Assembly (NCBI GenBank): GCA_029558735.1
Contig: JAKQDP010000068.1
Coordinates: 1-44,869 of the forward strand
Length of the DNA stretch: 44,869 nt
DNA from: a bacterium
GTDB lineage: Bacteria > Patescibacteriota > Patescibacteriia > 2-01-FULL-39-33
Direction: 5' to 3'
Part shown: piece after piece, positions 20,093-23,348 of the stretch
Layout: each line of letters begins with the position of its first letter
Position numbering within the stretch: position 1 is the first letter of the stretch
Notes under the pieces: generated by a model
Told to the model about the DNA's origin: nothing
The model's database searches: none
What the model saw: the letters and a program-made list of their open reading frames with translations, nothing else
Position numbers and translations under genes: made by a program

Positions 20093-20908
20093 TTAATTAG
20101 TCTCTGTTTTTATTTCCGATTGATTATTATTTTCCCCGGCCGACACTGGATTTTCTGATTCAGACGCTGAATTGCTTTTTTCATCACTATTGGGACCCGG
20201 TTCAACCGCTTGAGCATCTTCAATGACAGTTTCAGCCGGATCAGCTTTTAACGCTGAACCTTCCGGCTGATTAGTCGGCGCTTTAATAATCAACTCGCCC
20301 GGACCACTAATCAATAATAAACCGTTACGACCGCCCGGAACAGCGCCTTTAATATAAAGTATATTTTTTTCCTGATCAATAGCCACCACTTCCAAGCCAC
20401 TGACTGTAACTCGACTATTCCCCATTTGTCCGGGCATTCTTAAACCTTTAAACACTCGGGCCGGATCAGTCGAACCGATCGAACCGGGCATTCTTAATTG
20501 ATCTTTGTGACCATGGGTAGCCGGACTGCCATGAAAGCCGTGCCGCTTGACTACCCCCTGGAAACCTTTGCCCTTGGAAACTCCGGTTACTTTCACTTGA
20601 TCACCCTGATTAAAAATTTCAACCGTCAATATTGCGCCTCGCTTTAACTCACGAATTTCCTCCGCCGGCACTACAAATTCGCGAAGAGTCTTAATCGGAT
20701 TGAGGCCCTTAAGGTGACCACCTTGGGGTTTATTGATATGTTTTGCCCGACCAAAACCAACCTGAACGGCGCTATAGCCATCCTGATCTTGAGTTTTGAT
20801 TTGAGTGACCGTATTAGGTTCAACCAAAATTGCCGTAACCGGGACGACATTGCCGTCATCCTTGAAAATCTGGGTCATTGTTAATTTTTTTCCTAAAATA
20901 AATTTCAT
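20093..20908 (-). CDS. rplC: 50S ribosomal protein L3 with acidic low-complexity C-terminal extension
   Basis: KLTMTQIFKDDGNVVPVTAI...GFQGVVKRHGFHGSPATHGHKDQLRMPGSIGS. Confidence 0.96.
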   Translation of the reverse strand: MKFILGKKLTMTQIFKDDGNVVPVTAILVEPNTVTQIKTQDQDGYSAVQVGFGRAKHINKPQGGHLKGLNPIKTLREFVVPAEEIRELKRGAILTVEIFNQGDQVKVTGVSKGKGFQGVVKRHGFHGSPATHGHKDQLRMPGSIGSTDPARVFKGLRMPGQMGNSRVTVSGLEVVAIDQEKNILYIKGAVPGGRNGLLLISGPGELIIKAPTNQPEGSALKADPAETVIEDAQAVEPGPNSDEKSNSASESENPVSAGENNNQSEIKTETN

Positions 20909-20923
20909 TGCTTTTAAATAAAC

Positions 20924-20955
20924 AAAAAATCTGGCTATATCTTAAAAACCAGATT
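20924..20955 (-). terminator. terminator-like hairpin just upstream of rplC (candidate attenuator)
   Basis: Minus strand AATCTGG-(13 nt)-CCAGATT-TTTT (20949-20955 / 20929-20935 on plus) ending 16 nt before the rplC ATG. Confidence 0.5.
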
Positions 20956-21118
20956 AAGTTAACTGCCGACAAAACCGGCGGTTCAACTGTGCAATTTTTA
21001 AGATAATATTATTAAAATTATTCAATTCCTTATAAATCCAAGCCGCCAGTGGAGGTTTTCCTCATTAAGCTGCTAGTAGTTGCTTAGGATCTCTCTCCAT
21101 TATTGGTTTGAATTTTTT

Positions 21119-21244
21119 AATTAGGAACCCAAGATAGAGGCGACAAATAAACTTAACCTTCCGCCTTACGAGCTTCAAACAAAGTTGTTGCTCACTAATC
21201 GGTTTCTTCCAATTAGAGTTGGCCGCTATCTTTGGTTCCTAATT
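21119..21244 (-). ncRNA. candidate structured RNA element in the 341-nt rpsJ-rplC gap
   Basis: 19-nt arms 21119-21137 and 21226-21244 pair 18/19; internal hairpins CUAAUUGG/CCGAUUAG and GAGC-AACA/UGUU..GCUC. Confidence 0.55.
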
Positions 21245-21249
21245 TTAAA

Positions 21250-21594
21250 TTACATTTTAATTTCCACATTCACTCCGGCCGGCAAATTCAAACTCATTAA
21301 AGCGTCAACGGTTTTGGGATCGGGATCAATAATATCCAAAAGCCGTTTATGGGTGCGCATTTCAAATTGCTCCCGACTGTCTTTATGAACAAAAGTAGAG
21401 CGGTTGACCGTGTACTTCTTCTTTTCTGTCGGCAAAGGAATCGGACCAGACACTTTGGCGCCGAAGCGCTGACAAGTCTCAATGATCTTTTTGGCGGAAG
21501 AATCAATAATCTTATGGTCATAAGCTTTGATCTTAATGCGAATCCGCTGATGAGTCTTGTCATTTTCTTGAATTGCAGTATTTTTGCTAGCCAT
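21250..21594 (-). CDS. rpsJ: 30S ribosomal protein S10
   Basis: [63 protein letters not shown] at 21594. Confidence 0.97.
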
Positions 21595-21629
21595 TGATGT
21601 TTTAATTAACAAAGATTATTCCAGACACG

Positions 21630-23012: not shown

Positions 23013-23348
23013 TTATTCTACTGGTTCAAAGTAATAACGGTCTTCGTCTTCGCCATTTTTTTGTAATAATTCCGGTCCATTAAACTCGCCTAAATCTTGA
23101 GAAAAATCATACTGATCAATGGAAATTCCCTGAATTTTCTGACTATCCTTCCAAATAGCGATTTCACGGTTTATTTTAGCCAATAATTCATCCTCTGTCA
23201 AGCCTTCTACTCCAGCTTTTCCCAAAATAAGCTGTTCATAATCAGAAATACCCATAATCACATAGGCTGAATCGCCAGTCTCGGTTAAAATAATCGCCCG
23301 GTCTCCGGTTTTTTTGATTAATTTAAGCACTCTTTCAATACTGGTCAT
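23013..23348 (-). CDS. hypothetical protein between fusA and tuf; N-terminus resembles Phd/YefM-like fold
   Basis: MTSIERVLKLIKKTGDRAIILTETGDSAYVIMGISDYEQLI; weak similarity by eye only. Confidence 0.55.
   Translation of the reverse strand: MTSIERVLKLIKKTGDRAIILTETGDSAYVIMGISDYEQLILGKAGVEGLTEDELLAKINREIAIWKDSQKIQGISIDQYDFSQDLGEFNGPELLQKNGEDEDRYYFEPVE

Follow-up and report, generated by a model that had tools for sequence, protein, structure and literature searches.

The 341 nt between rpsJ and rplC in a patescibacterial genome probably contain a new ribosomal protein (r-protein) leader, common to the class of its host, that would attenuate transcription of the rplC-rplD-rplW operon upon binding an r-protein made from that same operon. 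The element, as we read it from comparative sequence analysis, probably tells these bacteria when to stop r-protein production. Patescibacteria (CPR) are reduced bacteria, for the most part uncultured, that form a very large group, and to our knowledge almost nothing has been established about gene control in them. If confirmed, the leader would add to the known RNAs a new family, spread through a whole class, that controls an r-protein operon of the largest kind, and a second, independent answer to S10-operon feedback, outside the gammaproteobacteria. It would also open to direct test the question of which protein controls the S10 operon in the absence of the E. coli leader, and its natural variants, strand-swapped forms among them, could be used to study the reading of RNA by a single protein.

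The window, i.e., the whole 44,869-nt stretch of DNA that was analyzed, carries on its minus strand the genes fusA, tuf, rpsJ, rplC, rplD and rplW, in this order, with the gap (20909-21249) between rpsJ and rplC; the RNA sense is that of the minus strand. EF-Tu and EF-G are thus encoded upstream of rpsJ, and L4 and L23 downstream of rplC. The predicted fold of the gap has an energy of -95.6 kcal/mol (z = -3.55), which was equaled by 1 of 100 shuffled sequences. The gene calls and this comparison confirm the structured gap of which a first-pass annotation of this DNA had spoken. Within the 0.99-Mb draft genome of the host the gap sequence occurs once. The closest named relatives are Candidatus Buchananbacteria (Patescibacteria), with a top L3 identity of 70%. 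Elsewhere at this locus, a 111-aa ORF lies between fusA and tuf (23013-23348, minus strand); its match to the Phd/YefM antitoxins is marginal (E 0.00087, below the cut-off), and the site would be an unusual one for an antitoxin-type gene. The features of the gap and its flanking genes are collected in Table 1.

Table 1. Features of the rpsJ-rplC gap and its flanking genes, in window coordinates and in the 5' to 3' order of the RNA.
Feature	Position	Strand	Basis
rpsJ (S10), upstream gene	21250-21612	minus	Pfam PF00338, E 1.5e-39
Element A, long hairpin just after the rpsJ stop (arms 21226-21244 / 21119-21137)	21119-21244	minus	MFE fold
Conserved leader core, type M1 (56 nt)	21047-21102	minus	Covariance model R1; covariation in relatives
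Helix P1, 5' strand AUGGAG (partner 21049-21054)	21095-21100	minus	Both-sided pair changes in relatives
Internal-loop strand alpha, AGAGAU (consensus AAAGNU)	21089-21094	minus	A, G and U positions invariant in 33 sequences
Helix P2, 5' strand CCU (partner 21060-21062)	21086-21088	minus	Paired throughout (100%), with both-sided changes at each of the three pairs
Variable apical loop of P2	21063-21085	minus	
Internal-loop strand beta, AAAAC	21055-21059	minus	Near-invariant
Helix P1, 3' strand CUCCAC	21049-21054	minus	Pair counts in relatives; R1 match
Segment 1, UAUCUUAAAAA, candidate antiterminator strand complementary to the terminator loop	20995-21005	minus	Duplex z = -3.96 versus shuffled upstream sequence
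Spacer hairpin, AACCGCCG / CGGCAGUU	20957-20989	minus	Fold; read by eye in family members
Intrinsic terminator	20924-20955	minus	AATCTGG 20949-20955, CCAGATT 20928-20934, T run 20924-20929
Segment 2, in the terminator loop (UUUUUAAGAUA)	20938-20948	minus	
rplC (L3), first gene 3' of the leader	20093-20908	minus	Pfam PF00297

By searching 381 genomes for L3, we placed and collected 120 gap regions, which represent 55 families within the window's class. Among 118 class gaps, that of the window included, the median length is 263 nt (range 125-755) and none is below 100 nt; thus, the long gap is a trait of the class and not a quirk of one genome. The first-pass annotation had stated that rpsJ and rplC are normally nearly adjacent. 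This holds for most of the other phyla compared, in which gaps of 0-25 nt are common, if not universal, but it fails for the window's own class, where the long gap is the rule. The order tuf-rpsJ-gap-rplC was found at the loci checked. Relatives within the class share ancestry, so that counts across genomes, here and below, are not counts of independent events. At two loci (L118 in G174 and L171 in G092) the assigned gap seems to take in the tail of S10-like coding sequence ahead of the leader. The true gap there would be shorter, with the end of S10 either misplaced by our script or its reading frame interrupted.

What is conserved among relatives is a small core. From 5' to 3' its type M1 consists of P1, internal-loop strand alpha (AAAGNU), P2, whose apical loop varies greatly in size, internal-loop strand beta (AAAAC), and P1'. 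In the window, CUCCA (21050-21054) pairs with UGGAG (21095-21099) to form P1, and AGG (21060-21062) pairs with CCU (21086-21088) to form P2; the part common to the window's family (f1) reads AUGGAGAAAGAUCC...GGGGAAAACCUCCAU. Between families the letters of the M1 helices vary while the unpaired letters are kept. That is, 11 near-invariant unpaired bases of the internal loop persist while the helices on both sides of it change by compensation. Judged from this conservation, the functional part of the gap appears to be the 56-nt core, and neither the 19-nt pairing arm nor the 11-codon ORF to which the earlier annotation had drawn attention. The GAGG-AAAA-CCTC hairpin proposed there is not conserved, and covariation contradicts it, since AGG pairs instead with CCU as P2. 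In one relative (G009; L100 / L016 gap) the alpha and beta strands are 189 nt apart, as against about 30 in its sisters; P2 accommodates large insertions, as this long insert in the apical loop indicates.

To quantify this conservation, we searched the gaps with a descriptor of the core, which matched 39 of the 120 class gaps (36 of them as type M1), against 0.3 in dinucleotide-shuffled sequences; the M1 descriptor alone gave the same 36 of 120, against 0.15. Reversed and antisense gaps, used as controls for the core descriptor, yielded no match. Across 33 M1 sequences 97.6% of the pairs are formed, 74 cells are altered on both sides, and the covariation score is 0.711, compared with at most 0.185 when the partners are slid. 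In the subset with a 5-nt alpha strand (n = 19, mostly family f63) the corresponding values are 94.7% paired and a score of 0.734. The rows of the M1 alignment were chosen with a pairing criterion, which biases these figures towards pairing. Because descriptor-found rows favor pairing in this way, we chose sites again by loop letters alone (AAAGNT...AAAAC), which removes the bias for part of the set. Of the 35 gaps so obtained, 25 have a perfect 5-bp P1, for which random positions in these gaps give 1.3%, and 30 have a perfect P2, for which 6.5% is expected. Both predicted helices, P1 and P2, covary strongly on these counts. The search for a conserved, covarying structure in related genomes, by alignment and covariation check, was thus successful, with the pairing located in the core and not in the parts that had been stressed at first.

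We next consider how specific the core is to this position. R1 is a covariance model built from 20 M1 sequences, and its E-values are rough; on the window, whose sequence is within the training set, it gives 39.8 bits (E 2.2e-8). Of 286 genomes of the class, 59 were matched by R1, exactly once each, down to E 7.6e-10, and 57 of these 59 matches lie between rpsJ and rplC. Where we inspected the surroundings of matches in genomes that had not contributed to the training, all 26 (20 of 20 and 6 of 6) were situated between S10 and L3, and the remaining gap matches agree with the places obtained from the L3 search. The two exceptions, in G055 and G234, are the two weakest matches. A second model, R2, which represents the strand-swapped type M2 described below, matched 18 genomes, 17 of them in the rpsJ-rplC gap. 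When R1 was run over 380 genomes of the phylum, the core was found only inside the class, apart from four weak matches outside it. We took these four as false, as none has rpsJ, tuf or rplC nearby; two of them, read in detail, fall in or overlap long ORFs. At the present sensitivity of the models, then, the element appears to be tied to rplC and to its own class. That the core occurs once per genome and solely before rplC, at the threshold used, points to a regulator made by the operon itself.

The most conspicuous hairpin of the gap, element A, lies outside this core. Its arms, TTAGGAACCnAAGATAG / CTATCTTnGGTTCCTAA, are conserved, and the interiors are unrelated or rearranged. It is present in 3 of the 10 genomes of the window's family, namely the window, L016 (2382-2535) and L017, at the same place and with compatible changes in the arms, and is single-copy in its own genome. 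The pairing of 18 of 19 positions noted at the outset is real, but an arm found in just 3 of 10 family genomes is not the key part; by its distribution, element A appears to be a lineage-specific extra outside the conserved core. Its long inverted arms and patchy presence could suggest a mobile element or an assembly artifact between rpsJ and rplC, a reading whose probability we regard as close to nil: the sequence is single-copy in the genome, it stands at the same place in independent genomes, and core and terminator exist without element A. For the core, this reading is already refuted.

The 11-codon ORF (MERDPKQLLAA) would, as a leader peptide, imply ribosome-mediated attenuation. The f1 core does contain an ATG, and several members start MEKDP. 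We nevertheless hold such a mechanism to be very improbable, as the ORF is lost where the letters of P1 differ while the RNA core persists, and as its ends are variable and it has no clear Shine-Dalgarno sequence. A conserved upstream ORF was rejected on like grounds: no clear Shine-Dalgarno sequence was seen, the stops vary between relatives, and one member starts with GTG. The ORF is instead a by-product of the RNA core, because P1 of f1 happens to read AUGGAG and other families keep the core without an ATG. The idea of a general Shine-Dalgarno-like AAGGAG after the core was dropped as well, this motif being present in only 19 of 86 gaps.

Downstream of the core, the terminator-like hairpin and T run that had been noted before rplC proved to be real, and terminators are enriched at the same place across the class. 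At a score of at least 9 a terminator precedes rplC in 94 of 121 gaps, versus 21 in shuffled sequences, and at a score of at least 12 in 63 of 121, versus 1.8. A separate, built-in terminator scan missed the terminator of the window, as its loop limit is 8 nt. The spacer hairpin ahead of it is kept in place within the family, though not in sequence. The pairing between segment 1 and the terminator loop recurs with other letters in f1 (combined p = 4e-6, ten genomes), for example as ACAUUUUUAAAA with UUUUACAAAUGU and as GUUUGUAUUAAAAUC with GUUUCAAUACGAA. Parts of f6 and f9 differ in that the 5' arm of the terminator, and not its loop, pairs with a segment upstream. In the window, the alternative pairing is strong for the terminator loop alone and modest (rank 7 of 100) once the 5' arm is included. 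In a blind evaluation over all families, 18 of 83 ranked fifth or better per 100, where about 4 would be expected, and the median z was -0.64; the pairing is non-significant in many families, and a general antiterminator pairing across the class was not shown. These data argue well for a switch in the window's family, and make one plausible elsewhere.

Some relatives also carry promoters in the gap. In 19 relatives the gap holds a near-perfect sigma-70 promoter (11 or 12 matches out of 12), versus 0.8 expected in shuffled sequences. These promoters belong mainly to f63, f9 and f56 and precede the core or the place where it would lie. In these promoter families the element is a genuine 5' leader for the rplC operon, since the promoter sits upstream of it in the gap. 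Such a promoter was searched for in the window's own gap and not found; hence the leader here may act only on read-through from tuf-rpsJ. The description of the element as lying inside the operon thus fits the window, but not the 19 relatives with a gap promoter.

The promoters in some families, the order tuf-rpsJ-gap-rplC, and a terminator and spacer hairpin kept in place would also be compatible with a ligand-free, constitutive attenuator, or with a processing site bordering a str-like unit (fusA-tuf-rpsJ) and an S10-like unit (rplC...). Such an element would set a fixed ratio or stabilize the processed mRNA, with no sensing of a protein. We consider this unlikely, because a terminator of fixed strength would have no need of the 11 unpaired bases that stay near-invariant between compensating helices.

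Our favored reading is therefore that of an r-protein leader. A structured RNA backed by covariation is found consistently upstream of r-protein genes, as in r-protein leaders, and an intrinsic terminator lies between it and the first gene, as in transcription attenuators. In the mechanism that we propose, the core (P1, the AAAGNU/AAAAC loop, and P2) would be the putative binding site for an r-protein made from its own operon. When the free protein is scarce, segment 1 would pair with the terminator loop and weaken the terminator, and the polymerase would read into rplC; in other families, segment 1 would pair with the 5' arm of the terminator instead. When the free protein is in excess, it would bind the core, the terminator would form, and the operon would be cut off. 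That the ligand is a protein, which protein it is, the direction of control, and the coupling between core and terminator are what we infer. Our first guess for the ligand is L4, because L4 acts in this manner in E. coli and its gene is the second one downstream of the leader. To this guess we give not quite an even chance; the ligand would otherwise be L3, L23, L2 or another protein.

Model searches of rRNA turned up no site similar to the core, so that the guess rests on gene context and on the E. coli precedent. A search of the host's own 23S (including H18-H20) and 16S rRNA with R1 and R2 gave no significant match, and in particular the model search revealed no mimic of the L4 site in domain I of 23S rRNA. 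Three-dimensional mimicry of that site by the core is possible. Exact words and an internal-loop descriptor, applied to 23S and 16S rRNA, disclosed just a letter-level likeness near H39/H40. There, the 23S letters GCUAAGCUCC...GGGAAACAGC resemble those of the f63 leaders with a 5-nt alpha strand, GAUAAGAUCC...GGAAAACAUC, and the 23S region around H40-H41 binds L20. This likeness could hint at the same leader build with a ligand from outside the operon, be it an r-protein such as L20 or a small molecule, as in a riboswitch. That seems to us quite improbable: in the rRNA model the 23S letters sit in two separate hairpin loops and not in an internal loop, the model searches gave no signal at that stretch, and the core occurs only before rplC, being absent before other r-protein operons. 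The host's 23S rRNA gene (G000:C55) is itself about 470 nt longer than the model, and part of the excess (L096 3200-3492) matches the group I intron model at 30.3 bits (E 5e-6; gathering cut-off 50).

The r-protein leader proposed here does not coincide with any RNA known to us. Neither the window nor any of 20 relatives matched an Rfam 15 family at the gathering cut-off, and matches below it in the window were at chance level; among these, a group I intron scored 17 bits (cut-off 50, E 0.066, intergenic). No credible match thus emerged from Rfam, where the first-pass annotation had suggested looking, and its central notion, an attenuator-like cis-regulatory RNA before rplC, is upheld: the element is single-copy and covarying, matches no Rfam family, and shares its place and core pairing with related genomes. 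Neither the literature searched nor Rfam 15 was found to describe an r-protein leader in Patescibacteria (CPR).

In E. coli, L4 attenuates transcription from the S10 leader, upstream of rpsJ (PMC7186457, PMC10931766). Like that leader, the element combines a structured leader with an intrinsic terminator before the L3, L4 and L23 genes; unlike it, the element follows rpsJ and precedes rplC, has different hairpins and gives no significant model match. The likeness to the E. coli leader drawn earlier can therefore be retained for proposed function and position, but not for sequence or structure, as the core models found no convincing match to the S10 leader. A match of R2 in E. coli K-12 (L220 2886-2926; 16.5 bits, E 0.013) lies near the 3' end of the rplC coding sequence and is probably due to chance. 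In position before the rplC operon, the element resembles the candidate L4 r-leader of Archaeoglobi, predicted directly upstream of rplC, rplD, rplW and rplB (Eckert & Weinberg 2020, PMC7247131). That candidate is archaeal, and the resemblance that we draw is one of position; the text of PMC7247131 makes no mention of Parcubacteria, Patescibacteria or CPR. In its proposed working, the element is similar to the L20 leader of B. subtilis (infC-rpmI-rplT), in which alternative pairings choose between terminator and read-through (PMC10931766), although operon and motif differ and no Rfam match exists.

The core also occurs in further forms, of types M2, M3 and M4, to which we assigned several cases by visual reading. 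Type M2, carried by f6, f67, f10, f47, f74, Falkowbacteria-like families and others, has the layout P1-UAAC-P2...P2'-AAGUG-P1', i.e., its loop strands follow in the reverse order to M1. In 19 M2 sequences 90.6% of the pairs are formed, with 64 double-change cells and a score of 0.947, versus at most 0.218 with slid partners. Since M1 and M2 share the letters GAAG(N)U and AAC-C, both might present one protein-recognition module (a closing G-C pair with GAAG(N)U opposite AAC) in two strand orders, an interpretation that we advance tentatively. If it is true, families of one class have swapped the strands of an r-protein site while keeping ligand and genomic position, which would be a natural RNA permutation, one with a precedent among ribozymes (PMC10085705). 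The leader of rpsL, described as a 'multiform' r-protein attenuator (Naville & Gautheret 2010, PMC2965389), likewise differs in structure from lineage to lineage, and a premature terminator is present in every form. In having several forms for one gene the element is like that leader; unlike it, the forms described here stand before rplC, not rpsL, and have in common an internal-loop signature whose strands come in either order. The loop AGGUU/AUAAC, arranged as in M1 but flanked by longer helices (95.6% paired), is found in families f53, f66, f42, f25 and f28, and f13, read by eye, apparently has a further form.
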